DNA of 64,000 bases from Caproicibacterium lactatifermentans (GTDB taxonomy: Bacteria > Bacillota > Clostridia > Oscillospirales > Acutalibacteraceae). The position numbers were made by a program, and so were the translations under genes. Positions 15,046-54,218 of this stretch are shown piece after piece (position 1 is the first letter of the stretch; each line of letters begins with the position of its first letter). The stretch is from assembly GCF_013315815.1 (NCBI RefSeq), contig NZ_CP046051.1:1178001-1242000 (forward strand), read 5' to 3'. Below the pieces are notes generated by a model. The model ran no database searches, was not told where the DNA came from, and worked only from the letters and a program-made list of their open reading frames with translations.

Positions 15046-15891
15046 TTGGTGAGCGTAAACGCCAGAGAAGAAGAATATGAGCATGTGGAGCTGTTCGGCC
15101 GGCCCGCGCTTTTTACGAATTCCCGCATTGACCGCGGCACCGTGCCGGAAGGCTTTCACTGCTATGACCTGCACGGCTCGGACCGTGACCCCGGAAAACC
15201 GACGACGGTGGAAAATCGGGTGGCCGTCCATCACGCCGGTACGGTGCTGACAGCCGAGCCAATCACCATTCCCAGGGAGGGCTTTCGCCGATTGCGCGGC
15301 GGCCTCAACTTTCTCGGTGAATGTCTGACGCTCCCGGAATTCTGTGAAAAGCAAAATCTCAGGCTCCCACCCGACGACCGGAAGTTTATTCTGCGGCCTG
15401 CCTCTCCCAGTGAGGCGGGCTTTTTTTTCGCCCTGCCGAAAGGACGGGACGCGGAGCTTGGAACCATTGGCCATATGCGGATCGATTTCGGCGGTGAAGG
15501 AAAGGAGTTCTGGCACACATGGTGGCCGAGGGGCGACGAGGAATTGAACAGCCCCGAATTCAAAGCGGAGATGAAAGAGCTGGTGAATGAACTGAAGGAA
15601 ACCGGTCCGCTGAAAAGTCTCAGCACCATGTCCGGCTACTGCGGCGGGCATGGCGGCCAGATCGAGGGCGGCGGGCGGCAGAACTATGGCTACATCGTGG
15701 AAACGGAGCATTACCGCTACTGCCTGCGGTGCAATCCCGGTCCCGGAGATTATCAGGCGTACCTGACAGCTTTCGATCTGCGGGTACAGAGGGTGAATAT
15801 GAAACAGAAAACGCCCGCGCAGGATTGCGGCCTTGAAGATAGAATCGGGGATCAGACGCCCGAACAGGGCATCACGATGGGAGGCTTATGA
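15046..15891 (+). CDS. LPD28-like polyvalent-associated protein, first gene of the element
   Basis: The 281-residue soluble protein carries, at about 15-75, the pattern HVELFGRPALFTNSRIDRG, then TVPEGFHCYDL and TVENRVAVHHAGTVLTAEP, which I recognise as the large polyvalent protein-associated domain LPD28 of conjugative elements. Residues 85-255 are of unknown fold. It ends in the short tail GITMGGL. The start is TTG 15046 (7 bases behind AAAGGAG) or GTG 15049. It begins a run of tightly packed accessory genes. The family is thought to accompany transferred DNA into recipients; the activity is unknown. Confidence 0.65.
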   Translation: MVSVNAREEEYEHVELFGRPALFTNSRIDRGTVPEGFHCYDLHGSDRDPGKPTTVENRVAVHHAGTVLTAEPITIPREGFRRLRGGLNFLGECLTLPEFCEKQNLRLPPDDRKFILRPASPSEAGFFFALPKGRDAELGTIGHMRIDFGGEGKEFWHTWWPRGDEELNSPEFKAEMKELVNELKETGPLKSLSTMSGYCGGHGGQIEGGGRQNYGYIVETEHYRYCLRCNPGPGDYQAYLTAFDLRVQRVNMKQKTPAQDCGLEDRIGDQTPEQGITMGGL

Positions 15892-15892
15892 G

Positions 15893-16624
15893 ATGAGACA
15901 GCATCCGAAATGGCTGGAGTTTTTACGCGAGCAGTACCCGCCGGGCACACGTATCCGGCTCGCACAGATGAACGATCCCTATTCCCCCGTGCCGCCCGGC
16001 ACCGAGGGGACGCTCGAGTACATCGACGACGCGGGCCAGTTCCAGATAAATTGGGACAACGGCCGCACCCTCGCGCTCATCCCCAGTGAAGATCACTTTT
16101 CCGTCATTCCGCGGCCGCTCCAGACTCTCAAGCTCTACATGCCGCTCACCGTCACCACCTATGAGCGCGACGAATACGGCGACATGGACAACGATCCCGT
16201 CGAGCTTGACAGCCGGACGGTCCTTCCCTATGAGGATCATATCCTCGCCGCCATTCTGAAGGAGCGCGCGCCGGAGGAAGCGGAGCGCGGCCTCATGAAA
16301 TACTATGGCGCGGACGACGCTGTAAACGACAAGGTGAGGTCTTATGTTTTCACGGTGGAACGTGTCCAGGGCCAATTGATGGGAGTCGCTGAGTGCCGCA
16401 TCAAGAGCGAACTGACAGCTGAGGAACTGGAACGGCTAAAGGGGAACATCTCCGGCCAGGCGTCCGATGGGTTTGGGGAAGGATTTGAGCAGCGGCCGAT
16501 CAAGACCCCGGACGGTGAGATTTACGTCAGCCTGTGGAGCAGCGAGAAAGGCTGGAACATCATGACGCAGGATGAGCTGGAGCAGAGCCAGCAGATGGGA
16601 GGCATGCGGCTTGATCAACAATAA
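15893..16624 (+). CDS. DUF4314-containing accessory protein
   Basis: The 243-residue protein begins with a DUF4314-type domain (residues 1-72: YPPGTRIRLAQMNDPYSP, PPGTEGTLEYIDDAGQFQ and WDNGRTLALIP), which is SH3-like and common in conjugative elements of Bacillota. A second conserved segment follows (LKLYMPLTVTTYERDEYGD, then LDSRTVLPYEDHILAAI). It ends in QQMGGMRLDQQ. The start ATG 15893 lies one base after the preceding stop; the ribosome site GGGAGG is embedded in the last codons of that gene. It overlaps the next gene by 14 bases. The function is unknown, and antirestriction or early-transfer roles are conjecture. Confidence 0.65.
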   Translation: MRQHPKWLEFLREQYPPGTRIRLAQMNDPYSPVPPGTEGTLEYIDDAGQFQINWDNGRTLALIPSEDHFSVIPRPLQTLKLYMPLTVTTYERDEYGDMDNDPVELDSRTVLPYEDHILAAILKERAPEEAERGLMKYYGADDAVNDKVRSYVFTVERVQGQLMGVAECRIKSELTAEELERLKGNISGQASDGFGEGFEQRPIKTPDGEIYVSLWSSEKGWNIMTQDELEQSQQMGGMRLDQQ

Positions 16625-17840
16625 AAGAATCATGGAGCTGGAGATCAGCCGTCCCGGTACGTTCGGCTCGAATACTTCGTCGACAATTGCGTTGCCCGCC
16701 ACCCCCTATGAGCTGTTGGATGCACTGGACAGGGCGCGCGTGACCGACGAACGGGTTATCTACTCCACGGAAATCCTGCGCTGCGAGCTGGACTACCTGC
16801 CCCAATTTCTCAGCCCCAGCTCCAACCTGTATGAAATGAACCATCTCTCCCAGCGGCTGGCCTCACTCAGCGATTGGGAGCTGGACTGCTTCGAGGGGAT
16901 GGTGATGATGGATGCTATCCAGAACAGCTATGCTTTGATCCCTGTGGAGCGGCTGATCAACATGACCGCCAGTATGGAGCACTGTCAGATCGCCTACGAA
17001 GCACACAACGACGAATCCCTCGGCAAATTTTATGCGGAAAACGGCTTCGTGCCGCAACTGGACAGCCTGCCGGACAATATCTACGCATGGCTGGACTTCG
17101 GCAAGATCGGAAAAGAGATGCGCGAGGGCGAAGGCGGCGTCTTTACCCCGCACGGCTATGTGGTGCAGAACGGTATGATCGCGCGGCTGTATCAGAGCGG
17201 AGAGGCCGTCCCCGCCGAGAAGCCGGACTACACGGTGCTCCTGCGCGTGACCAAAGGGCATTTCAACGATCCCGAATCTGACAACGGTCTCTCCGCACTT
17301 CTGAAGCTGCCCGCCGGCGATCAGGAGCTTTTTCAAGCGGTGAAGGAGGTGGACGCGATATCGCCGGAGGACTGCTCGTTTGTCGCCGTGGACTGCGCCA
17401 TTCCGCAATTGACGGAGAAAATCACAGATGAGCTGGAAGCAACAAATGGCGATTGCTACGGTCTGGTCAATGAGCTGGCAGGACAGCTACGGCATCTTGA
17501 CCGCGAGGGCGGCGTCCCCATTTGCAAGGCGATGCTGATGTCGGCGCCCGAGGACATCTCTCTGGAGGAAGTGCTCGACCTCGCGTATCAGACTGACGAA
17601 TTCAGGCTTCTGCGGGAAACCGCGACCCCTGCGGATTACGCGAAAGCGGAGCTTGCGAAATGTACGATCCCGCTGAAAGAAGAACTGTTTGCCAGCGATG
17701 CTGCCCTTTGTTACTACGGTGAAAAGCTCATGGAGCACGACAAGGCTTCCTCTACCGAATACGGCATTCTCGTCGCACGGGGCGGTCAGACGGTGGAACA
17801 GTGCCTGAACCGACCCGAACCGCAAATGGAAATGAGGTAA
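16611..17840 (+). CDS. ArdA-like antirestriction protein (tentative)
   Basis: The 409-residue acidic protein shows the general layout of ArdA antirestriction proteins, which mimic DNA and block type I restriction when an element enters a new cell: many Asp/Glu residues, an LSDWELDCFEGMVMM helix and a LPDNIYAWLDFGKIGKEM segment followed by a short Gly-Tyr-Val-Val strand. A second part (about 215-385) holds CAIPQLTEKITDELEA and DREGGVPICKAMLMSAPE. It ends in EPQMEMR. The start is probably TTG 16611, 9 bases behind GGGAGG, overlapping the previous gene; ATG 16632 has no ribosome site. The family call is uncertain because there is no single diagnostic motif. Confidence 0.5.
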   Translation: MINNKRIMELEISRPGTFGSNTSSTIALPATPYELLDALDRARVTDERVIYSTEILRCELDYLPQFLSPSSNLYEMNHLSQRLASLSDWELDCFEGMVMMDAIQNSYALIPVERLINMTASMEHCQIAYEAHNDESLGKFYAENGFVPQLDSLPDNIYAWLDFGKIGKEMREGEGGVFTPHGYVVQNGMIARLYQSGEAVPAEKPDYTVLLRVTKGHFNDPESDNGLSALLKLPAGDQELFQAVKEVDAISPEDCSFVAVDCAIPQLTEKITDELEATNGDCYGLVNELAGQLRHLDREGGVPICKAMLMSAPEDISLEEVLDLAYQTDEFRLLRETATPADYAKAELAKCTIPLKEELFASDAALCYYGEKLMEHDKASSTEYGILVARGGQTVEQCLNRPEPQMEMR

Positions 17841-19765: not shown

Positions 19766-20048
19766 GCCGATTTACAAGATCCTCGACGCCAAGGGGCGCG
19801 TGCTGATCCCGCGGGAAGCGCGCTCAGCCGCGGGCATGGACTACGGCGACATTGTCCGTCTGGATGTTCAGAACGGCCGGGTGTCGGTCAAAAAGGTCAA
19901 CATCGTCGAGGTTGGGGACAAATCTCCGGAGGCGGTGGAAGCATTCGTGCACGCCGCCATCCGGGAGATGCCGGAGGATAGCCAGATCGCCATCGCCGCC
20001 CGGCTGCTGGAGCTGATCCAGCAGAGAAAGGAAGGCCGCCATGGATGA
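19758..20048 (+). CDS. AbrB/MazE-like small regulator
   Basis: The 96-residue protein begins with a typical AbrB hairpin: ILDAKGRVLIPREARSAAGMDYGDIVRLDV (residues 7-36, in two halves around the PREAR turn), then VSVKKVN. The C-terminal part is helical. GTG 19758 is the start, inside the end of the preceding gene, with GGAGG upstream. MazE-like antitoxins share this fold but no toxin gene is adjacent, so a transcription regulator is more likely. Confidence 0.75.
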   Translation: MNKPIYKILDAKGRVLIPREARSAAGMDYGDIVRLDVQNGRVSVKKVNIVEVGDKSPEAVEAFVHAAIREMPEDSQIAIAARLLELIQQRKEGRHG

Positions 20049-20637
20049 GAAATCGGCCTATGGCGGGGAAGACTGCGTCCAAACCGGAACCGGCATGTTC
20101 ATTGCCGGAACTGTGGTCGTCCTCAAGCCGGAAGCACTGCCACAAGATCAGCGCGGTATCCGTCAGCTCCTCTTCTGCGAAGGCGGATTGGGCAGCGGCC
20201 CGGACGAGCCCGACGGTTCTTCCGTGCGCGCCGTTTCCCTCGCCAACGGGGAATGTGTTCGCCGGAAACGCAGCGAAATCCTTGGGTTGCTGAAAACCGA
20301 GCTGCTTCCCGACCGCGCGCGGCTTCAGCTGTCACAGATCCGGCCCCTGGATTCGGAGGTTCCCAAGGCGCCGCAATTTTTCGGTTACTGCTTCCTGCCG
20401 GACGGGCGCTATGCCGCGGGTGTTCCTCTTTCCGATGAGATGGAGGTGCGGGAGTACATCGACACGCAGCGCGGATACCAGCACCGCGTCATGATCTGCG
20501 ACAGCGAAGACAGCTGTGTGTTCGAGATGACCGCAGGCAAAGTCACTTTCCCCACGCGGGAGGACATCGAGCGTTTTAATAAAGAACAAACGCCGCCGGA
20601 CGCGCCCGAGTCCGGCGGGATGGAAATGAAACCGTGA
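20041..20637 (+). CDS. Element accessory protein of unknown function
   Basis: The 198-residue protein has an N-terminal strand-rich segment (about 15-95), then FFGYCFLPDGRYAAGVPL and YIDTQRGYQHRVMICDSED, which look like one compact alpha/beta domain. It ends after an acidic/Pro linker in the tail GGMEMKP. ATG 20041 overlaps the stop of the AbrB-like gene. I do not recognise the family; neighbours suggest it belongs to the set of soluble proteins carried by such elements. A CGCCGGAC/GTCCGGCG hairpin lies in its last codons. Confidence 0.6.
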   Translation: MDEKSAYGGEDCVQTGTGMFIAGTVVVLKPEALPQDQRGIRQLLFCEGGLGSGPDEPDGSSVRAVSLANGECVRRKRSEILGLLKTELLPDRARLQLSQIRPLDSEVPKAPQFFGYCFLPDGRYAAGVPLSDEMEVREYIDTQRGYQHRVMICDSEDSCVFEMTAGKVTFPTREDIERFNKEQTPPDAPESGGMEMKP

Positions 20638-20665: not shown

Positions 20666-21265
20666 ATGAAGAATATTGAAATCCGAAACGGCCGCGTCCT
20701 GTATTACAGCAATGAAGCGGGCTATGTGGAAAACGGCAGGGCCGTGGTCGACCCCATCTTCCAAAGCGATGAACTCTCGGACTTTCTTGCAAAGGAGAAG
20801 CTCGAGACTCTATGGACCAACGGTGTCTACGACCGACTCACCACCGCGAGAGAAACCTCGGCGGCGGGCGCGGAGGTCCCCGCAGCCGGGCGGGCCCATG
20901 GTTTCCCCGACCGCCCGCCGCTGAAAAGCTGCCGGATATGGCAGCTGAAGCCGGACGTGGATGTCCGCATGAAATTCGTCGGCTACGACGAGCTGCTGAA
21001 GAACTTCGGCGAGCCGGATCCCGGCAATTACCAGATTGCCTACGACGGGCAGGTGGAAACCAACGATCTGGAGGAACTCTACACCAAATTCAACGTCGAT
21101 CATCCGCCCGGTTACGAGGGGCACAGCCTTTCCATGTCGGACGTGGTGGAGCTGTACGACGAAACGGGCAGCTCCTTCCACTATATCGACCATTTCGGCT
21201 TTAAAGAGATCGGATTTGGCCCACCCGGGCAGGAGATGCGCCAGGGACCCGCCCTGAGTCCTTGA
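20666..21265 (+). CDS. YodL-domain protein
   Basis: The 199-residue protein carries a YodL-type domain at about 88-190: CRIWQLKPDVDVRMKFVGYD, then NYQIAYDGQVETNDLEELY, FNVDHPPGYEGHSLSMSDVV and FHYIDHFGFKEI, the order seen in YodL domains of conjugative elements and polyvalent proteins. Residues 1-85 are a variable head with a Pro/Ala-rich stretch. The biochemical role of YodL is unknown. It is the last gene of the accessory block before the secreted-protein block. Confidence 0.8.
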   Translation: MKNIEIRNGRVLYYSNEAGYVENGRAVVDPIFQSDELSDFLAKEKLETLWTNGVYDRLTTARETSAAGAEVPAAGRAHGFPDRPPLKSCRIWQLKPDVDVRMKFVGYDELLKNFGEPDPGNYQIAYDGQVETNDLEELYTKFNVDHPPGYEGHSLSMSDVVELYDETGSSFHYIDHFGFKEIGFGPPGQEMRQGPALSP

Positions 21266-24501: not shown

Positions 24502-24535
24502 ATACCCAAATTTGAAAACACAGGAGGAACAAGTC

Positions 24536-24922
24536 ATGAGTGAACTGCAGAATGTACCGGCCGCCGCCCCCGAAAGTCCGGCGCAGCCCATGCAGGTGGA
24601 TGTGAAAATCGGCTCCATCCGGCCGGAGGGCAATGTCAAAGCCTACGCTTCAGTCAACCTGAACGGCTGCTTTGCTATCCGTAATGTCAAGGTGCTCGAA
24701 AGCAGCAAGGGGCTGTTCGTGAGCATGCCGAGCTACCGGGCCGGGAACGGCGAGTACCGGGACATCTGCTTCCCGGTCACCAAGAAATTCCGGGAGCAGC
24801 TCAACGGCGCGGTGCTGGACGCCTATCACCAGGCGCTGATCCAGGGGCAGAAGGAAGCCCTCAGGCAGCATCTTCCCGAGGCTCCGAAGCAGGAAGCCGG
24901 AATGCAGATGGCGGGCGTGTGA
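24536..24922 (+). CDS. SpoVG-like DNA/RNA-binding protein
   Basis: The 128-residue protein has a SpoVG-type core at about 20-100: VDVKIGSIRPEGNVKAYASV, LNGCFAIRNVKVLES, GLFVSMPSYRAGNGEYRDIC and FPVTKKFREQLNGAVLDAYH. Chromosomal SpoVG is a small nucleic-acid-binding regulator; this copy belongs to the element, directly before the pilin gene, and has an extra Gln/Ala/Pro tail ending GMQMAGV. The start is ATG 24536 behind CAGGAGG. Its stop codon lies in the loop of a strong terminator. Confidence 0.88.
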   Translation: MSELQNVPAAAPESPAQPMQVDVKIGSIRPEGNVKAYASVNLNGCFAIRNVKVLESSKGLFVSMPSYRAGNGEYRDICFPVTKKFREQLNGAVLDAYHQALIQGQKEALRQHLPEAPKQEAGMQMAGV

Positions 24923-25626: not shown

Positions 25627-25645
25627 ATATTGGAGGGATTATCTC

Positions 25646-30480: not shown

Positions 30481-30586
30481 CGGCGAACCGCCGCTGATAT
30501 GACGCGGGTGCAGACAGCATCCAGCGGAAAACAAGGCGCCCGGGATCCTGAATATATCCATGTATGTGAGGAAGGGAGGTTTATAG

Positions 30587-30952
30587 ATGGACCATCAGAA
30601 AACGCTGCAGGAGCTTCAGGAAAAACTCGATGAAAATTACAATGCCTTTGTGCAGGGATGGTTAAATCTCGACACACCGACCCTGATCGAAAAAGCGGAG
30701 GAAATCGCCGCAACCAAAACGGTATACAAGGCGCTCCGGGCCAGCCATTTCAGGGACATGGAATATCTGCTCCGATTCCGGAACCCTCTGGAGGTTGTGC
30801 GGGATCAGTGGATGGAGGAAGAATCCTATGCGCCCGATGAGGATATGGAGCATGTTCTCTGGTCGGTCGCGGACCGCAGCGACGCAGAGCAGAGTTATGA
30901 ACTTGACGAGGATTTTCACCCTCCGGAACAGCAGGGGGTGAAACTGTGCTGA
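30587..30952 (+). CDS. Small acidic DUF3848-like protein
   Basis: The 121-residue soluble protein shows the pattern ENYNAFVQGWLNLDTPTLIEKAEEIAATK (in two halves), MEYLLRFRNPLEVVRDQWMEE and an acidic C-terminal half, similar to DUF3848 proteins of conjugative elements. AAGGGAGG lies before ATG. It stands between tadC and the pseudopilin genes, overlapping the first by 7 bases. The role is unknown; a cytoplasmic adaptor is a guess. Confidence 0.6.
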   Translation: MDHQKTLQELQEKLDENYNAFVQGWLNLDTPTLIEKAEEIAATKTVYKALRASHFRDMEYLLRFRNPLEVVRDQWMEEESYAPDEDMEHVLWSVADRSDAEQSYELDEDFHPPEQQGVKLC

Positions 30953-31341: not shown

Positions 31342-31354
31342 GGTGAAGGAAAAC

Positions 31355-36325: not shown

Positions 36326-36892
36326 TTGAAACTGGTCTATATCTGTTCCCCATACGCGGGGAGCATTGAGGAAAATGTCCGCTTTGCCAAAGCCGCGTGC
36401 CGGTACGCTATGAAGCAGGGCTGCGCACCCATTGCCCCGCACCTTCTGTACCCGCAGTTTTTGAACGATGCCGTTCCCATGGAAAGAGAAGCCGGTATCC
36501 GAATGGGGCTGCGGGTTTTAGCCTCCTGCGAAGAACTGTGGGTGTGTGGAAATCATACCAGCGAGGGCATGGAAAAAGAAATTGCTGAAGCAAAGCGGCT
36601 CGGCATTCCGGTCCGCAGGATATCGGCTGAACAAATTCAGAAAAAACAAGCCATCAGGCAGTACGGCATTCTGGCGCGCCGCAGCGCCTTGTCGGTCTGC
36701 GGTTCCGCCGAGGCGTGGGTGAAACAGGATGGAGAGCCGGTAACGTTTGACACCTACGAGGAAGCGGCCACCGAAGCAGGGCGGCTTAATGAAGGAATAG
36801 GGCCCGTCAACCGGACGGTGGAATATTTTCCGCAGAAAAGAAGTCCCCTGCCGGAAGAAACGCTTGTCTTCGGCATGAGCATGCGGCTATGA
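36326..36892 (+). CDS. DUF4406/DUF7768-type protein (nucleoside 2-deoxyribosyltransferase-like fold)
   Basis: The 188-residue protein starts KLVYICSPYAGSIEENVRFA and continues GCAPIAPHLLYPQFLND, EELWVCGNHTSEGMEKEI and RLGIPVRRIS, the pattern of the deoxyribosyltransferase-like fold found in phage and conjugative-element proteins. Residues 110-188 form an extra segment and the protein ends VFGMSMRL. The start is TTG 36326 behind AAGGGATG. It overlaps the C5 methylase by 4 bases. A nucleotide- or signalling-related activity is likely but unproven. Confidence 0.7.
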   Translation: MKLVYICSPYAGSIEENVRFAKAACRYAMKQGCAPIAPHLLYPQFLNDAVPMEREAGIRMGLRVLASCEELWVCGNHTSEGMEKEIAEAKRLGIPVRRISAEQIQKKQAIRQYGILARRSALSVCGSAEAWVKQDGEPVTFDTYEEAATEAGRLNEGIGPVNRTVEYFPQKRSPLPEETLVFGMSMRL

Positions 36893-38917: not shown

Positions 38918-39229
38918 ATGTATATCTATCCGGATAATCTCCGGGCGAAGCCCACCCTCTGGCTGTGGGAGTTGCGGGATCTCGGCGTGATCGGCATCGG
39001 CCTTCTCCTCGCGGTGCTTGCGTTGGCTCAGCTGCGATTTCTGCCGCCTATTGTCCTCGTCGCGCTTTACGCCTTTTTGAGTATCCGCTTCGACGACACC
39101 AGCATTTTGAATTTCATCAAGAATGCAGCGGCTTTCTTCCTCACGAAACAGCAGTATTTTGAATGGGGGCTGTCGGACGCTGCGAATCCGCCTGATATGG
39201 GACCGCGTGGAAGGAGCAAAAACTTATGA
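38918..39229 (+). CDS. PrgI/TcpE-like transfer protein (VirB3 position)
   Basis: The 103-residue protein starts MYIYPDNLRAKPTLWLWELR and has two adjacent membrane helices (LGVIGIGLLLAVLALAQL and PIVLVALYAFLSIRF). Short proteins of this topology directly upstream of VirB4 are the PrgI/VirB3-type components that anchor the ATPase. AAAAGGAC precedes ATG. It overlaps the next gene by 4 bases. Confidence 0.8.
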   Translation: MYIYPDNLRAKPTLWLWELRDLGVIGIGLLLAVLALAQLRFLPPIVLVALYAFLSIRFDDTSILNFIKNAAAFFLTKQQYFEWGLSDAANPPDMGPRGRSKNL

Positions 39230-39816
39230 GCAGGCAAACAAAAAAACAGGCAAGGCAGTGGCAGACCACCCGCCAGCTGATCAACACAAAAGCCATCACC
39301 GATTACAGCCTGCAAACCTATCGGAACGACGAACTGGTCTATTTTATCGTGCAGCCCACAAATATCTCCGTGCTGTCTGAAGAAAGCCTGTCCGCCCGGA
39401 TCTATGCGCTGATGACCGTCCTCAAGGGGATTGCGGAATTGGAGTTTATATGCTTAAACAGCCGCGAAAATTTCGAGGGCAACAAGCAATTTCTGCGCAC
39501 GCGGCTTGAAAAGGAACAGAATCCGGCTATCCGTGCTCTGTTGGAGGCCGACCTGAACCATCTGGATCGTATCCAGATGCAGATGGCGACGGCGCGGGAA
39601 TTTCTGGTCGTGCTGCGCCTGCGGAATGAGAAGCAAGGCGAAATTTATTCCTATCTTAACCGCATTGAGAAGACCCTGCGGGAACAGGGCTTCTCCGCCA
39701 AACGCGCAGATTCAGAGGACATCAAATGCCTTTTGGCCGTTTACTTCGAACAGAATGTCACCTCTGAAAAGTTTGAGGATTTCGACGGGGAGCGTTGGTT
39801 GATTCCAGACGAATAG
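39226..39816 (+). CDS. Detached VirB4 N-terminal-like protein
   Basis: The 196-residue soluble protein reads like the N-terminal domain of VirB4/TraC ATPases: DYSLQTYRNDELVYFIVQPT, LSARIYALMTVLKGIAELEF and a helical hairpin near EADLNHLDRIQMQMATARE, then VVLRLRNEK. No P-loop is present. The 617-residue VirB4 lies 2.7 kb downstream, after a reversed polymerase cassette. It could be an independent adaptor that cooperates with VirB4. The assignment is by pattern and position. Confidence 0.55.
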   Translation: MSRQTKKQARQWQTTRQLINTKAITDYSLQTYRNDELVYFIVQPTNISVLSEESLSARIYALMTVLKGIAELEFICLNSRENFEGNKQFLRTRLEKEQNPAIRALLEADLNHLDRIQMQMATAREFLVVLRLRNEKQGEIYSYLNRIEKTLREQGFSAKRADSEDIKCLLAVYFEQNVTSEKFEDFDGERWLIPDE

Positions 39817-42543: not shown

Positions 42544-44397
42544 ATGGCAAAGCAGCAGAAGACGAAAACGCCGCCGCAGGAGGATGTCCGCATGCAGGAA
42601 TTTCTGGACATGATTGCACCCTCGGTGATCAAGTTTTTCACGGATTATTTTATCTGCGGCAACACATTTCGGTGCGTTTGGGCTTTGCGTGAATACCCGA
42701 CGACGACCGATGAGCAGGCCATCTTACGCTATCTCGGAGAAAAAGACGGCGTAACCCTGCACCTCTACACCAGGCACGTCACACCCATGGAGGAAAAGAA
42801 AATCATCTCAAATGCTGCGAACAAAAACCGTATGCAGCGGAGCAGCACACAGGATCTTCAACAAACCGTCACAGCTGAGTCGAATTTACAAGACGTCACC
42901 ACCCTTGTCACACAAATGCACCGGAGTAAGGAGCCGCTTCTGCATACGGCGGTTTACATCGAGCTCTCCGCCCACAGTCTGGAACAGCTCGGTCTGCTTC
43001 AAACCGAAGTGCTGACAGAACTCATTCGTTCCAAGCTCAATGTGGATAAACTCCTGCTCCGCCAGCAGCAGGGATTCCAGAGCGTCATCCCCTCAGGCTG
43101 GAATGCGTTTTCCAGCCAATTTGAGCGGGTCCTGCCCGCAAGCTCCGCCGCCAACCTGTACCCCTTTAATTATTCGGGCAAAACAGATCCCCATGGCTTT
43201 TACCTGGGCCGCGATAAGTTCGGCTCGAATATAATCGTGGACTTCGACAAGCGGGACGATGATAAAACCAACAGCAATATTTTGATCCTTGGCAATAGCG
43301 GCCAGGGCAAAAGCCACCTTTTGAAGCTGATCCTCTGCAATATCCTTGAATCCGGAAAAAGCGTGATCTGCCTCGATCCGGAACATGAATACGTTGATCT
43401 GGCCGAAAACCTCGGGGGGTGTTTTGCCGACCTCATGAGCGGTCAATATATGATAAACCCTTTGGAGCCCAAGACCTGGGACGAAGGCGGCAGCCCCGAG
43501 GATAAGGAAGCGCCCCAGGCATTCCGGCAGCGGACAAAGCTCAGCCAGCATGTTTCTTTCCTGAAGGACTTTTTCCGCTGTTACAAGAATTTTTCCGACC
43601 GCCACATCGATGTTATCGAAATCATGCTGGGTAAGCTCTATGAAAAATGGGGGCTCAGCGACCGCACCGATTTCAGCAAGCTGGAGGCCGCTGATTACCC
43701 CATCCTTTCCGACCTGTACGCGCTGATTGAGGATGAGTACAAAAGCTACGACCAGGCAAAATATCAGCTCTACACCGCCGAGCTCCTGCAGGAAATCCTG
43801 CTGGGGCTCCACTCCATGTGCCAGGGCGCCGAGAGCAAATTCTTCAACGGCCATACCAATGTGACTTCCAACCGCTTTATTGTGTTTGGCGTCAAGGGAT
43901 TACTGCAGGCCAGCCGGAATGTCAAGAGCACTCTCCTGTTCAACGTCCTTTCCTTTATGTCCGACAAACTGCTGACCGAAGGCAATACGGCCGCCAGCAT
44001 CGACGAGCTGTATCTGTTCCTGACCAACAATGGCGGCGGGAACGGTAACAATTATGTGGTCATTGAGTATATTCGAAGCTGCATGAAGCGGGTACGGAAA
44101 AAGGACTCCGCCATGATTCTGGCCTCGCAGAATCTCGAAGATTTCAACATCGAGGGCATCAGGGAGCTGACGAAGCCGCTGTTTTCCATCCCCACGCACG
44201 CGTTCCTCTTCAACGCTGGCAACATCGACAAGCATTTTTACATCGACTCCCTGCAGCTCGAGGAATCCGAGTACATCCTGATCCGTTACCCTCAGCGGGG
44301 CGTCTGCTTGTATAAATGCGGCAACGAGCGGTATAACCTGATGGTCACCGCACCGGAGTACAAATCAAAACTCTTCGGTACGGCCGGAGGCCGCTGA
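42544..44397 (+). CDS. virB4: VirB4 conjugation ATPase
   Basis: The 617-residue ATPase energises substrate transfer and assembly of the conjugation channel at the inner membrane. Walker A is GNSGQGKS (250-257), LDPEHEYVDLAENLGG follows the P-loop domain as in VirB4/TraC proteins, ASIDELYLFL is the Walker B region and MILASQNLEDF the arginine/sensor segment. The N-terminal domain is short (about 1-200), consistent with part of it being a separate protein upstream. GGAAGGAAG lies before ATG. Confidence 0.95.
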   Translation: MAKQQKTKTPPQEDVRMQEFLDMIAPSVIKFFTDYFICGNTFRCVWALREYPTTTDEQAILRYLGEKDGVTLHLYTRHVTPMEEKKIISNAANKNRMQRSSTQDLQQTVTAESNLQDVTTLVTQMHRSKEPLLHTAVYIELSAHSLEQLGLLQTEVLTELIRSKLNVDKLLLRQQQGFQSVIPSGWNAFSSQFERVLPASSAANLYPFNYSGKTDPHGFYLGRDKFGSNIIVDFDKRDDDKTNSNILILGNSGQGKSHLLKLILCNILESGKSVICLDPEHEYVDLAENLGGCFADLMSGQYMINPLEPKTWDEGGSPEDKEAPQAFRQRTKLSQHVSFLKDFFRCYKNFSDRHIDVIEIMLGKLYEKWGLSDRTDFSKLEAADYPILSDLYALIEDEYKSYDQAKYQLYTAELLQEILLGLHSMCQGAESKFFNGHTNVTSNRFIVFGVKGLLQASRNVKSTLLFNVLSFMSDKLLTEGNTAASIDELYLFLTNNGGGNGNNYVVIEYIRSCMKRVRKKDSAMILASQNLEDFNIEGIRELTKPLFSIPTHAFLFNAGNIDKHFYIDSLQLEESEYILIRYPQRGVCLYKCGNERYNLMVTAPEYKSKLFGTAGGR

Positions 44398-44421: not shown

Positions 44422-45471
44422 TTGGACATGAAAGAACAGCGGTTCGGGATTGAAATCGAGATGACAGGCTTGACCCGTGAGGCTGCCGCACGTGTGCTGT
44501 CCGAACATTTAGGGAATCCCGTCAGCCGCGACGGGGGGTATTACGGCGAATATTCTGTTTTGGACAGTGAGAGCCGCCGCTGGAAGGTCATGAGCGACGG
44601 CAGTATCACCTGTCAGAAAAAAGAAGGAGGCAGGCTTGTTCCCGCGGACCATGATTACAGTGTGGAGCTGGTCAGCCCCATCTGCCATTGGGGTGACATC
44701 GAAATCATCCAGGAAATCGTGCGGAAACTGCGCGGCGCCGGAATGATCGCCGATAAAAGCTGTGGGATCCATGTGCATGTGGACGCCTCTCCGCACAACG
44801 CGAACACTCTGCGCAACATCACCAATATCATGGCTGCGAAAGAGGATCTGATCTATAAGGCCATGCAGGTGGAGGTTGCCCGCGAGCACCAATATTGCAG
44901 AAAGGTCGATCAGCGTTTTCTTGAAGAACTCAATCGCAAAAAACCCAGAACGCTCAATGAGGTCAGCCGCATCTGGTACGGAGGTGCAGACCGGAGCTAC
45001 CACCATTACGACGATTCCCGTTACCACTGCCTGAACTTACATAGCGTGTTCCAAAAGGGCACAATTGAGTTCAGGCTTTTTAATTCCACCACTCATGCCG
45101 GAAAGATCAAGGCATATATCCAGTTCTGCCTCGCCGTTTCCGCGCAGGCCCTCAACCAGCGCTGCGCCAGCAGGCAGAAAACCCACAGCACCAATGAAAA
45201 ATACACTTTCCGCACCTGGCTTTTACGGCTTGGGCTGATTGGGGATGAATTCAAAACCGCCCGGCTGCATCTGCTGGAGCATCTGGACGGCTGTATCGCG
45301 TGGAAAAACCCCGAGCAGGCTATACAGCAAAAGCAAAGGTTACGGCAGAAAAAAGAAAAAGAACTGGAATCGGCCGCAGAAAGCCAAGCCCAACAGGAGA
45401 CTGCAACGGCCACTCCACAGCAGGAACCGGCCGGGGAGGACGAGTCCCCGGCCCTTGTCATGCGTATGTAA
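44422..45471 (+). CDS. Amidoligase-family enzyme
   Basis: The 349-residue protein matches putative amidoligases (COOH-NH2 ligase fold): RFGIEIEMTGLTREAAARVL, WKVMSDGSITC, YSVELVSPICHWGDIEII, CGIHVHVDASPH and LHSVFQKGTIEFRLFNSTTH. These enzymes are predicted to form peptide or isopeptide bonds using ATP. The C-terminal 50 residues are a Gln/Glu/Ala-rich linker ending PALVMRM. TTG 44422 has a weak AAGAG site; ATG 44428 is the alternative. It is followed by a gamma-glutamylcyclotransferase-like gene, a pairing described in comparative surveys of amidoligases. The substrate is unknown. Confidence 0.85.
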   Translation: MDMKEQRFGIEIEMTGLTREAAARVLSEHLGNPVSRDGGYYGEYSVLDSESRRWKVMSDGSITCQKKEGGRLVPADHDYSVELVSPICHWGDIEIIQEIVRKLRGAGMIADKSCGIHVHVDASPHNANTLRNITNIMAAKEDLIYKAMQVEVAREHQYCRKVDQRFLEELNRKKPRTLNEVSRIWYGGADRSYHHYDDSRYHCLNLHSVFQKGTIEFRLFNSTTHAGKIKAYIQFCLAVSAQALNQRCASRQKTHSTNEKYTFRTWLLRLGLIGDEFKTARLHLLEHLDGCIAWKNPEQAIQQKQRLRQKKEKELESAAESQAQQETATATPQQEPAGEDESPALVMRM

Positions 45472-45494: not shown

Positions 45495-46013
45495 GTGAGC
45501 AAATCTATGCTGTATATCGCTTACGGCAGCAACCTTAACCTTCCGCAGATGGCTTACCGCTGCCCGACCGCCAAAGTGGTTGGAACAAGCGAGATCAGGG
45601 ATTATGAACTGCTGTTCCGTGGCGGACGCCGTGGGGCGGTTGCCACCGTGGAGCCGCTCAAGGGGGCGAATGTTCCCATTCTGTTATGGAAGATCCGGCC
45701 TGCCGACGAGCAGGCACTCGACCGGTATGAAGGATACCCCCATTTTTATCACAAAGAGATCCTGCCGGTGCAACTTGGGGGAAAGACACAACCGGCCATG
45801 GTCTACATCATGAACGACAGGCATCCCTTCGGGACCCCTTCGGATTACTACCTGGGAGTCATCATGGAGGGTTATAAAACGGCGAACTTTGATACGGATT
45901 TTCTGGAAAGGTCCGTGGAAAAGTCCATCCGGCTGGCCGAAGAACAAGAGCAGTCCGAACAGGAATCACCGGATCTGGAACAAGGCAGTCTGTTCAATAT
46001 GAAATGGAAATAA
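45495..46013 (+). CDS. Gamma-glutamylcyclotransferase/AIG2-like enzyme
   Basis: The 172-residue protein begins LYIAYGSNLNLPQMAYRCP, whose YGSNL loop binds substrate, and continues LLFRGGRRGAVATVEPLKG, then LDRYEGYPHFYHKEILPV with the catalytic Glu region, and PSDYYLGVIMEGY. Family members release 5-oxoproline from gamma-glutamyl compounds. The C-terminal 30 residues are an acidic/Gln linker ending LFNMKWK. It is likely the partner of the amidoligase upstream: one makes, the other cuts, a gamma-glutamyl-type bond. Confidence 0.87.
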   Translation: MSKSMLYIAYGSNLNLPQMAYRCPTAKVVGTSEIRDYELLFRGGRRGAVATVEPLKGANVPILLWKIRPADEQALDRYEGYPHFYHKEILPVQLGGKTQPAMVYIMNDRHPFGTPSDYYLGVIMEGYKTANFDTDFLERSVEKSIRLAEEQEQSEQESPDLEQGSLFNMKWK

Positions 46014-48528: not shown

Positions 48529-48535
48529 CTCCGCT

Positions 48536-48668: not shown

Positions 48669-49237
48669 TGTACCCTTCAAGCTCTGTCAGTTGCAGGACC
48701 AATACGGAAATCCCGGTCACTTGGGAGGAATTGAGGGGCCAGACTGTCGAAAGTTGCCCTTACCATCCGGCTGACCGAAGCTGGAACCTGCTGACAGATA
48801 ATCCCTCCCTGAGCCAGCCGACCCAGGCGCCCGAGATACGAATGTAAAGTGTCGACATAGGATCAAAGGCCGTAGACGTTGGTTTGAAAACAGAAAAGCC
48901 TGCTCCTCGCCCATGTCGCCGCCCGTGTGGCCCCGTGTCGCACTTTCTCCGCAGAGGTCACACAGCTGCACCGTGAGACGGTAAGGCCCGGTGCTGGGGC
49001 TTTGTGCGGAAATCTGCACAGCCAAACGCTCCGCTTTCGGGGAGTGAACCATGGGGTCGAAAACGATGCGGGTTAAAGCAGCGGGGTCGCGGTGCGCCCC
49101 CGCTGCGGCTCACACCGCCCCGCAATGCGGGTCGGGGAACGATTTGCTCCGGGGTCGGATTTCGGCCCCTGGGGTCGGTTCCGGGGTCGGCGGCTGAAAA
49201 AACAACCGTAAACCCGCATCTTTACGCCTTTACAGAG

Positions 49238-49710: not shown

Positions 49711-52611
49711 ATGCCGAAAATCATCTTTAAGTGCCGGTATCTCAAGGACGGAACCCATGCCGCCAACCTCGTGGAATACATGGCGACGCGCGAGGGCGTG
49801 GAGAAGCTTCCGGCGAATATCCGCGCCCTGCCCTCCACGGCAAAACAGCAACGGCTCATCGGTGATCTGTTGGCTCAGTTTCCCGATACCGCGGACCTGT
49901 TCGAATATGAGGACTTCCAGAAGCGGTCTACCATTGAGAACGCCTCGGAATTCATCACGGCGGCGTTGGAACAAAATCTGGATCAGCTCGGGCACAAGGA
50001 CGTGTACGTGCAATATATCGCCACCCGCCCTCATGTGGAGAAATCCGGCACGCACGGCCTGTTTTCAGATGCCGGGGCGCCACCAGTATTGTCCGAAGTG
50101 GCGGAGGAAGTCTCCCATCACACGGGAAACGTCTGGGCGCCGATTATCAGCCTGCGGCGGGAGGACGCCGCCCGGCTCGGGTATGACCATGCCGCGGCGT
50201 GGATGGCGCTTCTGCGCAAACAGCGCAACCTGTTCTCCGAGCAGATGAAGATCTCCCCGGAAAACCTGCGCTGGTACGCGGCTTTTCACGATGAGGGCCA
50301 TCATCCACACTGCCACATGATCGTCTATTCCATCGATCCCCGTGAGGGTTACGTTACCAAACCCGCCATCAACAAAATGCGGAGTACGCTGGCGCATGAA
50401 ATCTTCCAGCAGGACCTGATGCAGATCTATCCGGAGCAGACCGCACGCCGCAACGAGCTCGCCGAACAGAGCCGTGCCGCGCTTTCCGAAATCATCGGGC
50501 AGATGGAATCCGGTGTCTACGAAAACAAGGTTATTGAAGATCTGATCTCCCGGCTTGTCGAACGCCTGAAATACACCTCGGGCAGAAAACAGTACGGTTA
50601 CCTCAAGGCCGAGCTCAAGACCATCGTCGATCAGATCGTGGATGAGCTGTCAAAGGACGCGCGGGTGGCGGAAGCCTACCAGGCATGGTACGAACTACAA
50701 AACGAGGTTCTGCACACTTACGCCGACAAGCTGCCCGGCCCGCTTCCGCTTTCCCAACAGAAGGAATTCAAGCACATCAAGAACATCGTGATCGAGGAAG
50801 CCCTGCGCATCAATGAACGGCAGATCACGTTTGAGGGCGACGAGGGCATTGAGGCTCAGGCGGATACGGCAGCTGATCAGGCCGATCGGGTGTATGAGCC
50901 GGAGGATGAGCCAGACGATGAATCCCCAGAAGACGGGAATTTTCCGGACAGCACATCAGAAGGCCCGGAACCCATTGAAAGTCCGCCCGCGACACCCCAC
51001 CCATATATCGAATGGAGCGACCGCTACAAACAGGCCCGTGAATTTTTGTACGGGAAAGACGATATGGAGCCGGATTTAGCTCAGACGCTCCGGCTGTTTC
51101 AAGAAGAAGCCGATGCTGGAAACGCACTCGCCATGCATGATCTCGGACGCATGTACGCAGACGGACTGGGGATAGAAGCCGATGCGGGGATTTCTTTCAC
51201 CTGGTACGAAAAGGCCCTCACAGCCTTTTATGAGATTGAAACGGGGAAAAGCCACCGCTATGTGGAATACCGCATCGGCAAGATGCATGCGGCTGGCAAC
51301 GGCACCGATCAGGATTATGAAGAAGCGGCGGGCTGGTTTGAGAAATCTGCCTCGGAGAATTACAAGTACGCGCAGTATTCCCTCGCCGGCCTGTATTACC
51401 GTGGCCAGGGCTTGGAACAGAACTACAATACGGCGTTTGTTCTCTATGACAAAGCGGCGCGGCAGCACTTCCCATATGCGTCCTACGAACTGGCGAAGAT
51501 GTACCGCGACGGTATCGGCACGGCAAAAAATCATGATGCGGCCGCCGCCTGCTTCCGGGAAGCCTTTCTCGGCTTTCAGCAACTGGAGGCTCAGAGCCGC
51601 GACGATAAGCTCCAGTACCGCCTCGGACAAATGCTTTATACGGGCACCGGAACGGAACAGAATATCGGCGCGGCGGTGCAATACCTCGAGAAATCGGCCA
51701 AGCTCGGGAATGCCTATGCCCAATGTCTGCTTGGAAAAATTTATCTGGCTGTTGAAAGTCCGTTGAATCCGGTTGAAAACTCCTATGCGAACCCCGAAAG
51801 TGGCATCTTCTGGCTCACCAAAGCTGCGGATGCCGGAAATGACTCCGCAGAGTATCTATTAGGAAAGCTCTACCGGGACGGCCTGTATGTGGAGCGGAAC
51901 TCGGAAAAAGCCGTCGCACTGTTCACCGCGGCGGCCAAACAGAAGAACCCCTACGCCGCCTACGCCCTGGGAAAGTTGTACCTCGAAGGAACGGCTGTCG
52001 TAAAGGATACGGGTGCCGCAGCCAGATGGCTGACATTCTCGGCCGGCCTCGGCAATGCGTATGCGCAGTACGCGCTGGCAAAGCTGTATCTGGCCGACGA
52101 AGATGTGCCAAAGGATGTTCCGCGAGCGGTGGATTTACTCACAAAGGCGGCCCTGCAGAACAATTCCTTTGCCCAATACCGGATCGGCAAGCTGTACCTT
52201 CTGGGAGAGGAAGTTTCCAAAGATATGGATGCCGCCTTCCGGTGGCTCACAGACGCAGCGGAACAGAACAACCAATATGCCCAGTACATGCTCGGCAAGC
52301 TCTATCTGATGGGGCAGGATGTTCCCCGCGACCGCGAGGCCGCCGCCCGATGGCTGACGGCTTCCGCCGGGCAGGGCAATCCATACGCCCAAATTTTTCT
52401 CAATCATCTGGACTCGTTCCGTGATCCGTCCCCGATGCTGGCGGTTACCCGGCTCCTGCACCATCTGAGCCGGATCTTCCGGCAGCAGCAAGGCAGACTG
52501 TACGGAGGCCCCTCCATGGAGACGGACAGCAAGCTCCGCCGCCGGCTTCGACAGAAGAAGATGGCAATGGGCCATGCGCCCGACGAGCGGGCGCCCGAAC
52601 AAACCTATTAA
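49711..52611 (+). CDS. MobP-type relaxase fused to Sel1-like repeats
   Basis: The 966-residue relaxase nicks the transfer origin and pilots DNA into the recipient. The N-terminal relaxase domain (about 1-230) starts PKIIFKCRYLKDGTHAANLV (Tyr candidates near residue 10 and 23) and has the three-His metal motif HDEGHHPHCH at 193-202. A helical linker (230-430, acidic at 390-430) leads to about a dozen Sel1-like repeats (about 435-915) such as AQYSLAGLYYRGQGLEQNY and AQYALAKLYLADEDVPKDV. The end is basic (KLRRRLRQKKMAMGH). The repeats likely bind partners, perhaps VirD4. Confidence 0.92.
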   Translation: MPKIIFKCRYLKDGTHAANLVEYMATREGVEKLPANIRALPSTAKQQRLIGDLLAQFPDTADLFEYEDFQKRSTIENASEFITAALEQNLDQLGHKDVYVQYIATRPHVEKSGTHGLFSDAGAPPVLSEVAEEVSHHTGNVWAPIISLRREDAARLGYDHAAAWMALLRKQRNLFSEQMKISPENLRWYAAFHDEGHHPHCHMIVYSIDPREGYVTKPAINKMRSTLAHEIFQQDLMQIYPEQTARRNELAEQSRAALSEIIGQMESGVYENKVIEDLISRLVERLKYTSGRKQYGYLKAELKTIVDQIVDELSKDARVAEAYQAWYELQNEVLHTYADKLPGPLPLSQQKEFKHIKNIVIEEALRINERQITFEGDEGIEAQADTAADQADRVYEPEDEPDDESPEDGNFPDSTSEGPEPIESPPATPHPYIEWSDRYKQAREFLYGKDDMEPDLAQTLRLFQEEADAGNALAMHDLGRMYADGLGIEADAGISFTWYEKALTAFYEIETGKSHRYVEYRIGKMHAAGNGTDQDYEEAAGWFEKSASENYKYAQYSLAGLYYRGQGLEQNYNTAFVLYDKAARQHFPYASYELAKMYRDGIGTAKNHDAAAACFREAFLGFQQLEAQSRDDKLQYRLGQMLYTGTGTEQNIGAAVQYLEKSAKLGNAYAQCLLGKIYLAVESPLNPVENSYANPESGIFWLTKAADAGNDSAEYLLGKLYRDGLYVERNSEKAVALFTAAAKQKNPYAAYALGKLYLEGTAVVKDTGAAARWLTFSAGLGNAYAQYALAKLYLADEDVPKDVPRAVDLLTKAALQNNSFAQYRIGKLYLLGEEVSKDMDAAFRWLTDAAEQNNQYAQYMLGKLYLMGQDVPRDREAAARWLTASAGQGNPYAQIFLNHLDSFRDPSPMLAVTRLLHHLSRIFRQQQGRLYGGPSMETDSKLRRRLRQKKMAMGHAPDERAPEQTY

Positions 52612-52628: not shown

Positions 52629-52751
52629 ATGCAAAAGCATTATCCACAGGCAAAAGAGATCCCGCCCGCCAAAATCAATATGGTGCCGGAAAAGCCGTCC
52701 GTACATCAGCGGACGGCCTTTTTTCGCCGGTGCGGGAAACGCAAACGCTGA
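52629..52751 (+). CDS. Possible 40-residue basic protein containing a terminator
   Basis: A short frame (MQKHYPQAKEIPPAKINMV...) starts 11 bases behind AAAGGAG and ends in the basic tail FFRRCGKRKR. The terminator at 52694 lies inside it, which suggests a leader-type regulatory frame, or that the frame is accidental. Confidence 0.3.
   Translation: MQKHYPQAKEIPPAKINMVPEKPSVHQRTAFFRRCGKRKR
52694..52724 (+). terminator. Terminator between relaxase and primase genes
   Basis: GCCGTCCG and CGGACGGC form an 8-bp stem with an 8-base loop, followed by CTTTTTT. Confidence 0.85.
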
Positions 52752-52766
52752 AAGGAAGGATCCTTC

Positions 52767-54218
52767 ATGTCCTATATCCCGTTCACAGAGGAAGAAAAGC
52801 AAAGGGCCAACTCGGTTGACCTGGTGGATTTTTTGCAGAGGCAGGGCGAGCAGCTCGTCCGCTCCGGGCATGAGTGGCGTTGGAAACGGCACGACAGCGT
52901 GACGATCCGCGGCAGCGAGTGGTTTCGGCATTCCCGCAAGGAAGGAGGCCACGCGATTGACTTCGTCCAACGGTTTTACGACATGGATTTCCCCGGAGCG
53001 GTCACCTTTCTGCTTGGAGGCGAAGGCGGCCTGGAATGGAACCAGACCGCGAAAAGCGCGCCGCCGCCCAAAAAGAACTTCGCGCTTCCGGAGGCCAATC
53101 CGGACATGCGCCGGGTGTTTGCCTATCTTCTCAAACAGCGGTTCATCGACCCGAGCGTGCTGTCGTATTTCGCGCGCGAACACCTGATCTACGAGGACAA
53201 AGAATACCATAACGCCGTATTCGTTGGTCTGGATGAGGATGGTGCCGCCCGGCATGCGCACAAGCGCGGCACCTATACCAAGGGCGAGCCTTACAAGGGT
53301 AATGTCGAGGGAAGCGATCCGAAATACAGCTTTCACTACATTGGCGAGGACGACACCCTTTATGTGTTCGAAGCGCCGATCGATATGCTCTCTTTTATTT
53401 CCCTTCACCTGAAGGACTGGCAAAAACACAGCTATGTCACGCTGGACGGTGTGTCTGAGCACGCGATGCTGCAACAGCTGAAAAGCCATTCGAACCTGAA
53501 AAAGATTGTGCTGTGCCTTGATCACGACGAGGCCGGGATTGAGGCCACCGGCAGACTGAAGGACATCCTTGCGGAACACGATTATTACGCCCCCGCTTAT
53601 ATGGACATTCCTGTTTTGCAATCCCGGTACAAGGACTGGAACGAGGATATCAAGGCAAAACACGGCATTACCCCCATCCCTGCCGGGGAGCATCCGAAGC
53701 TCGTCCTGCTGCCGGAGATCTGCGAGAATCTGTTCTCCGCATGTGAAACCCTATCGGCCGTTCCGGATCCGAACGCTGTCATTCGGGAATATCACCGGAG
53801 GCTGACGCCGCTGGTCGATTCCGAAAAGCTCGCTGCCGCGAATCCGGAAATCGTGGGAGCCTGTCTGCAGAAGATGGCGGCGGGCGCGTTGCTGGCCGCT
53901 CAGCGGGAGCTTCGGCAAATGGAACGACCGGAAACGCTCGGGCAGCTGGTCGGAAACCTGCGGGACAGCTACAGGCCCCACCTGGACCGGGGCTGGATGC
54001 GAACCAAAGCGGAAGATATTCGCGAGGATGCGGTGAATATAGACCGGCAGTTATTCGCACCCGGCATCCGCACGCTGCAGGAGCGGCTGGCATTGGTTTC
54101 GGATTACAGGCGCCTCGCGCTTGACTGCGTGAAGGCGCAGCTTTTTGTCCGGCTGGAACTGTCCCAGCCGCTCCAGGCGCCGGAGGAAGCGGCGCCAAAT
54201 TTTAGAATGAGCATGTAA
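52767..54218 (+). CDS. Conjugation primase-like protein (zinc-finger-like head, DUF3991, TOPRIM)
   Basis: The 483-residue protein has a DnaG/CHC2-related head (VDLVDFLQRQGEQLVRSG, WFRHSRKEGGHAIDFVQ) that lacks the usual zinc cysteines, a DUF3991-type middle (FAREHLIYEDKEYHNAVFVG) and a TOPRIM domain with the acid motifs LYVFEAPIDMLSF and KKIVLCLDHDEAGIEA. The C-terminal third is helical and ends APNFRMSM. Such proteins are presumed to prime replacement-strand synthesis, possibly in the recipient. AAGGAAGG precedes ATG. Confidence 0.85.
   Translation: MSYIPFTEEEKQRANSVDLVDFLQRQGEQLVRSGHEWRWKRHDSVTIRGSEWFRHSRKEGGHAIDFVQRFYDMDFPGAVTFLLGGEGGLEWNQTAKSAPPPKKNFALPEANPDMRRVFAYLLKQRFIDPSVLSYFAREHLIYEDKEYHNAVFVGLDEDGAARHAHKRGTYTKGEPYKGNVEGSDPKYSFHYIGEDDTLYVFEAPIDMLSFISLHLKDWQKHSYVTLDGVSEHAMLQQLKSHSNLKKIVLCLDHDEAGIEATGRLKDILAEHDYYAPAYMDIPVLQSRYKDWNEDIKAKHGITPIPAGEHPKLVLLPEICENLFSACETLSAVPDPNAVIREYHRRLTPLVDSEKLAAANPEIVGACLQKMAAGALLAAQRELRQMERPETLGQLVGNLRDSYRPHLDRGWMRTKAEDIREDAVNIDRQLFAPGIRTLQERLALVSDYRRLALDCVKAQLFVRLELSQPLQAPEEAAPNFRMSM

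Follow-up and report, generated by a model that had tools for sequence, protein, structure and literature searches.

VirE2 and VirF carry a positively charged C-terminal signal motif. Positively charged C-terminal signals are attributed, in a general statement, to substrates of VirB/VirD4-type systems (accessible text of PMC11288057), and acidic, Glu-rich C-terminal signals (E-blocks) of Legionella Dot/Icm effectors are read by DotM and bind basic patches of a T4SS coupling complex (accessible text of PMC5802825). It is established for an F plasmid that conjugation also delivers proteins of the plasmid, and the accessible parts of PMC11288057 and PMC8406263 describe how F-type conjugation moves PsiB, SSB, ParA and others by C-terminal or internal signals. 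Delivery with the DNA has also been predicted for the polyvalent proteins of conjugative elements and phages, including Tn1549-like elements (PMC5512222, as far as its accessible text goes). Here we consider a conjugative element that occupies about 15.0–56.6 kb, its exact ends not being settled, of a 64,000-nucleotide stretch of the Caproicibacterium lactatifermentans genome (contig NZ_CP046051.1; hereafter the window). Its transfer genes encode a MobL/MobP3 relaxase, VirD4, VirB4 as two proteins, an M23 peptidase and a Tad/Flp-like operon, and between them lie genes for soluble accessory proteins: LPD28, DUF4314, ArdA, YodL, SpoVG, DUF7768, amidoligase, gamma-glutamyl cyclotransferase and DUF3991/Toprim primase.

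These accessory proteins, which we call cargo, share a C-terminal tail: a flexible acidic linker rich in Glu, Gln and Pro, followed by a hydrophobic tip that is typically Met-x-Met. The tail is selected as protein, is carried by the cargo and not by the tested families of the transfer machine, and changes with that machine. We propose that the element's coupling complex recognizes it as a C-terminal type IV secretion signal, which serves to co-deliver establishment proteins, and the sequence comparisons below make this probable. In the donor cell, the tip and linker would dock on VirD4 or a partner of it; the machine would then pump the docked proteins across together with the DNA or alongside it, and in the recipient they would shield the element and help it become established ahead of the expression of its own genes. 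The same is proposed for elements whose type IV secretion system (T4SS) is of the CD1115/CD1110 type, with a basic tail ending in ER or AR. Since a tip is shared within one machine, and homologues switch tip with the machine, recognition by the machine is the simplest cause.

In the window, Met-x-Met lies among the eight C-terminal residues of six of the 45 element proteins; shuffling of the last 30 residues gave a mean of 0.32 and never reached six in 20,000 rounds, and against a control rate of 3/656 the binomial p is 6e-8. The wider sample comprises 31 related elements from 29 genomes, hand-chosen from VirD4 matches by identity and contig room (with the window, 32 elements and 948 proteins); the best 80 of a longer list of named loci, including Desulfosporosinus, Pelotomaculum, Lacrimispora, Roseburia and Oscillibacter; 20 control loci picked by contig room among VirD4 matches of about 30% identity; and stretches of chromosome from a subset of these genomes. 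Seven of the 80 named loci share more than half their proteins with elements already fetched, and the main counts were redone without duplicates. In that form, the 112 loci of the window's VirD4 lineage have Met-x-Met in 148 of 1908 proteins, where shuffling predicts 14.4, vs 3 of 652 in the controls (chromosome 2/332, the 20 distant-VirD4 loci 1/320; Fisher p=7e-16); with duplicates kept, the lineage count is 160/2043. The bearers form 31 protein clusters, 28 once three chance chromosomal matches (clusters 19, 20 and 28) had been dropped, ahead of the composition analysis, and two of those remaining are both DUF4314; 14 of 20 further cluster representatives have no Pfam match at E 0.01. A preliminary description of this DNA had named nine C-terminal ends of this kind. 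All nine are present at the genes it gave, and the enrichment that it proposed to look for in related elements is there. A separate candidate, that the tail is a general trait of these hosts, was rejected (2/333 chromosomal proteins).

The anatomy of the tail is well defined. Near the C-termini of the 948 proteins, Met pairs at a spacing of two number 68 vs 3.7 expected and those at a spacing of three 26 vs 4.0, and a spacing of one is not enriched (3 vs 5.5). When a Met-x-Met pair lies in the last ten residues, its second Met is at −1 to −5 in 74 cases and at −6 to −10 in two, and Met is the last residue of 100 of the 948 proteins, compared with a mean of 22 at positions 31–60 from the end. 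The acidic, Pro- or Gln-rich linker of the preliminary description is borne out by composition: in the 16 residues before the tip, the Glu fraction is 0.197 vs 0.086 in other C-termini and the mean net charge −3.3 vs −0.2, with Gln and Pro also abundant and Lys, Arg, Val and aromatics scarce. Among 48 amidoligases, chosen so that no two share the same last 60 residues and anchored at the C-terminus, identity is 0.84 at −1 and 0.66 at −3, the two Met positions, vs 0.35 at −2, 0.26 at −4, 0.35–0.60 at −5 to −10, 0.13–0.28 at −11 to −25 and 0.75 in the core. That the tip is kept while the linker drifts was counted in favour of a signal, and conservation at i and i+2 would suit an extended peptide held in a groove. 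An AlphaFold model of the window's amidoligase predicts the last 25 residues to be disordered, with a predicted local distance difference test score (pLDDT) below 50 for residues 325–349; this model and one of VirD4 are of moderate confidence (mean pLDDT 68.6 and 70.2) and were used for disorder only.

Tips of this kind could also arise at the DNA level, from the ribosome sites and start codons of the gene that follows (ATGGGAGG, ATGNNNATG) or through copying of a single 3′ end between genes. The TMGGL end of the first cargo gene does overlap a ribosome site and the next start, and fits such a stop–start overlap (ATGGGAGGCTTATGA), as had been suggested for it; MGGM and MGGL ends also recur in relatives, and either overlap or tail may account for the TMGGL end. 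Near the stop codons of the 32 elements, however, ATGNNNATG occurs 75 times in frame and six times out of frame, with 30 different middle codons. This in-frame bias and codon diversity place the signal at the protein level, and a purely ribosome-site origin was accordingly rejected. Phage homologues, moreover, stop before the tail, which counts against both a ribosome-site and a copied end. For the Met-x-Met cases an origin of either sort is already contradicted, and as an account of the tips at large we regard it as exceedingly improbable.

Which families carry the tail? Among unique homologues outside the window, Met-x-Met is found in 23/26 amidoligases, 5/8 members of the family of the gene at 20041 (Met in the last five residues in 8/8), 3/4 DUF7768 proteins, 2/3 LPD28 proteins, 4/10 SpoVG (Met in the last five, 9/10) and 4/14 ArdA (11/14). 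It is absent from the transfer machine, with 0/28 for VirB4, 0/97 for VirD4, 0/39 for M23, 0/18 for VirB6-like and 0/61 for MobC-like proteins (the last two labelled by place only), and with none in each of the pilus-operon families. As in C-terminal T4SS signals, the motif thus lies at the extreme C-terminus of unrelated families and is missing from the tested machine components.

Homologues found outside such elements lack it. Tailed gut phages of Candidatus Heliusvirales encode the same amidoligase, at about 44–55% identity, and in all nine phage records fetched, of 94 that matched, the protein stops right after the domain. None of five phage cyclotransferases has the tail, and the proteins of the nine gut-phage stretches show Met-x-Met in 0/335 (3/335 under a looser tail rule). 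SpoVG, for which the preliminary description had pointed to chromosomal homologues as a check, behaves in the same manner: of six copies away from the fetched elements, none has Met-x-Met, one (L145) having a single Met next to the last residue. Neither of the two outcomes which that description had named as refuting its reading, chromosomal homologues with the same ends or a lack of enrichment across related elements, was obtained. This comparison left out L148, L151, L159 and L160, the SpoVG of L148 and L151 being covered in a separate one. For the amidoligase, 20 of 43 places were fetched for context and 28 ends were read. Of its 120 closest relatives, 108 end in Met-x-Met and all 120 have a hydrophobic-x-hydrophobic pattern within the last six residues. 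In loci from genomes of the class, 8/8 Met-tailed amidoligases (six with Met-x-Met) sit with a window-type VirB4, and 10/11 tailless ones sit with phage structural genes (some of these loci being near-identical), L292 having neither neighbour. The tail therefore co-occurs with one T4SS lineage and is lost outside it, as C-terminal T4SS signals would be.

Two other assignments were considered and rejected: that the tail is a trait of the phages that share the cargo (Met-x-Met 0/335), and that it belongs to each protein family wherever found, which the phage, SpoVG and CD1115-type homologues contradict. Three scaffolds filed as 'Bacteriophage sp.' (L132, L134 and L136; MT839541, MT839085 and MT836328) hold cargo genes of the kind found in integrative and conjugative elements (ICEs). 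L132 and L134, with a Met-tailed amidoligase and VirB4, look like ICE fragments, apparently misfiled conjugative elements.

The control loci with a distant VirD4 hold a shared tail of their own, K/R-rich and ending in ER, AR or DR. The comparison of homologous cargo between the two T4SS lineages, which the preliminary description did not foresee, contributes more than any other to the case for a tag. In CD1115/CD1110-type ICEs (L110–L129 and L304–L315; L110, L115 and L117, among the 20 control loci, show no such cargo), it is carried by an SNF2-helicase protein, the primase, YodL-DUF3846, DUF3801, DUF6674 and ArdC-N. Ends of the form [DEA]R occur in 51/323 control-locus proteins vs 5/948 and 3/1095 in the window-type sets and 6/333 on the chromosome. 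Amidoligases near the R-tailed copy of L136 end in R in 102 of the 104 proteins counted (those of length 300–330, from 120), and of seven loci fetched through such a protein, five have a VirD4 51–53% identical to the CD1115-type VirD4 of L128, the fetched sequence of the other two ending before VirD4. A C-terminal R is found, in window-type vs CD-type elements, in 2/34 vs 7/7 cyclotransferases, 1/80 vs 13/15 primases, 0/10 vs 5/5 YodL proteins, 0/8 vs 3/4 DUF4314 proteins and 0/27 vs 7/7 amidoligases, these last seven having been found with an R-tailed query, so that it is their context which is informative. Control families do not shift (C5-methylase 0/6 vs 0/6, ParM 0/15 vs 0/6, ParR-like 0/15 vs 0/4), and methylase, ParM and ParR-like proteins carry neither tail. 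In our interpretation, the carriers suit an immediate need on arrival (countering restriction, priming, small enzymes directed at host targets), and the partition proteins and methylases, whose work is in the settled cell, have no tail.

In genomes G085 and G214 the two element types occur together, each with its own tail, and therefore the host cytoplasm is not the cause; G343 and G295 also hold both types, their window-type elements being without Met-x-Met. In these comparisons, tail type follows the transfer machine and not the fold or the host. This bears on the proposal that the tail is a C-degron or regulatory handle, by which a host protease, or an adaptor encoded by the element, sets how long ICE proteins last. 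Short hydrophobic C-terminal tips can act as protease tags, and would suit such a role. Against it stand the sampled host proteins, mostly without the tail (2/333), the two genomes with opposite tails, and the homologous families that take opposite tails by element type; we consider a degron quite improbable. A lineage effect would have each family inherit its own end, the match with the T4SS reflecting a few old whole-module transfers, and tail states may indeed be clade-bound within each family. Nevertheless, unrelated families share the tip type of a given machine and change together between types, and such a joint change needs a common selective cause, which leaves inheritance of this kind very improbable.

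Several observations weigh against a delivery signal. The tip is far from universal in the primase (35/79) and is rare in DUF4314 (1/7) and YodL (1/9, with Met in the last five in 7/9) proteins; the cyclotransferases have it in 0/33 (Met in the last five in 12/33), many ending in KWW. Met-x-Met is absent altogether from 9/32 elements and 24/80 named loci. At 14 named loci (L189, L191, L193, L196–L198, L202, L206, L208, L209 and L211–L214, most of them Lachnospiraceae), the primase instead finishes with CSQ, CSQS or CSQP, which may be a third tail variant or a trait of the family; a third tail type was also sought in DUF3991 primases from plasmids of Enterococcus and Priestia (two loci), which showed no clear pattern. 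One SpoVG copy without a Met end (L158) stands beside a tailed copy, and the amidoligase of L291 ends in GGAR beside a distant terminase match (29% identity). The comparison of opposite tails rests on about six families; in DUF7768 the difference (1/5 vs 3/5) is not significant (p=0.52), and ending in R is not specific by itself, for window-type VirB4 does so in 29/29. Counts within a family are not independent, and at the level of families the Met-x-Met excess is smaller and weaker, though it holds (24/635 vs 3/450, p=0.001), and the 24 may include chance matches. Finally, the relaxase, an obligatory substrate, has Met-x-Met in 0/68. The preliminary description was right that the pilus, VirB4, VirD4 and relaxase proteins are without Met-x-Met; the relaxase end is nonetheless mostly acidic, and its last residue is hydrophobic in 50/68 relaxases of the window lineage vs 82/333 chromosomal proteins; that it bears the same tag is a weak possibility. 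The delivery tag that had been suggested is supported as the leading account, with a tip more degenerate than described, and delivery into the recipient is what we infer from it.

A further alternative accepts recognition by the machine and stops there: the tail would tether proteins to the transfer complex or the relaxosome within the donor, for scaffolding, local anti-defence or local replication, and nothing would move to the recipient. Docking of this kind would yield the same machine-specific distribution, and a primase would be useful in the donor as well. In our judgement, however, it is hard to see what ArdA, SpoVG, amidoligase or cyclotransferase would do at the transfer pore, and CD1115-type relaxases, which are necessarily transferred, share the R-rich end (9/13 end in R, the relaxases being identified mainly by place and size). 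Docking confined to the donor thus seems unlikely.

If the tail is a delivery signal, what would read it? VirD4 is the candidate reader to examine. Over the last 30 residues, its mean net charge is +0.87 in the window lineage (n=98) vs −6.55 in the control set (n=20; p=5e-9), in each case opposite to that of the cargo; over the last 40 or 50 residues, the values are −1.5 and −2.5 vs −7.0 and −7.9. The window's own VirD4 end is near neutral (+2, 0 and −4 over the last 15, 30 and 50 residues), and its model shows residues 567–605 as disordered. These features suggest docking on the VirD4 end, and a charge match between tail and VirD4 end may be conjectured. It is tempting to imagine an address code of Firmicutes ICEs, in which an acidic linker with Met-x-Met (MobL/split-VirB4 elements) or a basic ER/AR end (CD1115) would be read by a disordered VirD4 end of matching charge, and enzymes and defence inhibitors would join or leave the delivered cargo simply by gaining or losing the tail. 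Since the sign of the charge depends on the length chosen, we lowered our estimate for this code and now hold it tentatively, at somewhat less than an even chance. If it were true, the injected proteome of very many gut elements could be read from sequence.

Features of the window discussed in the text, with cargo ends given up to the stop codon
Feature	Coordinates	Strand	Remarks
LPD28-domain protein	15046..15891	+	end TMGGL (15874-15888), overlaps ribosome site/stop-start
DUF4314 protein	15833..16624	+	end QQMGGMRLDQQ, tail 16595-16621; true start probably downstream of the listed TTG
ArdA-family antirestriction protein	16572..17840	+	tail PEPQMEMR (17823-17837); Pfam ArdA E=3.8e-7, above cut-off
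Protein of no known family	20041..20637	+	tail ESGGMEMKP (20617-20634)
YodL protein	20666..21265	+	end GQEMRQGPALSP (21230-21262); several homologues end TMRL, AMQL or similar
Element-borne SpoVG	24512..24922	+	tail EAGMQMAGV (24899-24919)
DUF3848-like protein	30587..30952	+	match below cut-off; possible variant end QQGVKLC (30932-30949)
DUF7768 protein	36326..36892	+	tail VFGMSMRL (36872-36889)
VirB4 N-terminal part, separate protein	39226..39816	+	without tail; aligns to NF045975 positions 94-288, below cut-off
VirB4 ATPase, C-terminal part	42544..44397	+	without tail
Amidoligase (amidoligase_2)	44422..45471	+	catalytic domain, variable acidic linker, tail SPALVMRM (45454-45468)
Gamma-glutamyl cyclotransferase (GGACT)	45495..46013	+	variant tail GSLFNMKWK (45993-46010)
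MobL/MobP3 relaxase with Sel1 repeats	49711..52611	+	without Met-x-Met; family end mostly acidic, last residue hydrophobic; nine matched Sel1 stretches in the C-terminal half
DUF3991/Toprim_2 primase	52767..54218	+	tail APNFRMSM (54201-54215)
VirD4 coupling protein	54232..56049	+	proposed tail reader; residues 567-605 predicted disordered

Genes were called with a simple codon-based caller. The fold labels of the preliminary description hold for ArdA, SpoVG, amidoligase, primase and cyclotransferase, and its DUF4406 gene belongs to DUF7768, the DUF4406 match falling just under the cut-off. A PADLOC scan of ten cargo proteins gave no match, and a search for a solved structural relative of the amidoligase found none. 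A frame at 48470-48847, overlapping the ParR-like gene, has a tail-like end (QAPEIRM); its N-terminal part looks non-coding, and it is perhaps a broken gene. The two-protein VirB4 (N part about 196 aa, ATPase part about 617 aa) is seen in the window and in 20 of the 31 other fetched loci showing the ATPase part; in the window, a minus-strand Y-polymerase-like/YolD-like pair, identified by eye, lies between the two parts. The Tad/Flp-like operon (25580-32526) lies inside the element, with RcpC/CpaB and a T2SSE (CpaF-type) ATPase assigned by Pfam and the other members by place; TadB/C-like homologues occur in 7/31 other elements, and Met tails are also present in elements without them. A tRNA-Ala gene (14655-14730) adjoins the left side of the element. 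No copy of it of at least 16 bases was found beyond 50 kb, nor any matching pair of end repeats within 14200-57400; no integrase was noticed, no search having been aimed at integrases. Against the NCBIfam models of the CD1115/CD1110 (Tn1549-like) T4SS, the window's VirD4 barely reaches the cut-off (NF045973, 251.7 vs 250) and its VirB4 falls short (NF045971, 157 vs 325), the two-piece VirB4 lowering the score, whereas L128 exceeds both (526.9 and 1058.4). The two cut-offs taken jointly would place the window's element outside that type.

How does the tail compare with the signals already described? Like the Dot/Icm E-block, it is an acidic, Glu-rich C-terminal stretch on different proteins, and the Glu content and net charge found here agree with that pattern. 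Dot/Icm, however, is a type IVB effector-secreting system of a Gram-negative pathogen, and the accessible text of PMC5802825 mentions no Met-x-Met tip; here the bearers are establishment proteins of DNA-transferring Gram-positive ICEs, and the genes found are of the VirB4/VirD4/MobL type (DotM was not searched for). The VirE2/VirF type of signal resembles the basic ER/AR tail of CD1115-type cargo and is opposite in charge to the tail of the window. With F-type conjugation, the element would share the delivery of establishment proteins; the F-type signals are diverse, and almost every substrate tested could also pass through two further conjugation systems, according to the accessible parts of the F-plasmid papers, whereas here each machine lineage has one shared kind of tail. 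The LPD, primase and SNF2 domains of polyvalent proteins recur in these elements, and the window cargo shares the LPD28, ArdA and YodL domain types with them. Polyvalent proteins, however, combine several domains of different function in one polypeptide, and the cargo of the window has one Pfam domain per protein (the primase two).

The accessible text of the polyvalent-protein survey (PMC5512222) reports no C-terminal tag and has no mention of SpoVG, amidoligase, 'C-terminal tail' or 'transfer signal'. At the level of the literature matches listed, which did not extend to subscription papers, no C-terminal signal appears for the cargo of Gram-positive ICEs or T4SSs. As far as those matches go, what is new is the Met-x-Met form, its occurrence in a Gram-positive setting and the existence of two tails, each specific to its machine; in kind, the tail belongs with the C-terminal T4SS signals. 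It has already been proposed that Firmicutes conjugative elements send antirestriction and polyvalent proteins along with their DNA; the cargo signal is the piece added here. The occurrence of opposite tails, one per machine, on the same families of cargo offers both a direct test and a rule by which the delivered proteins of two ICE lineages could be predicted from sequence.

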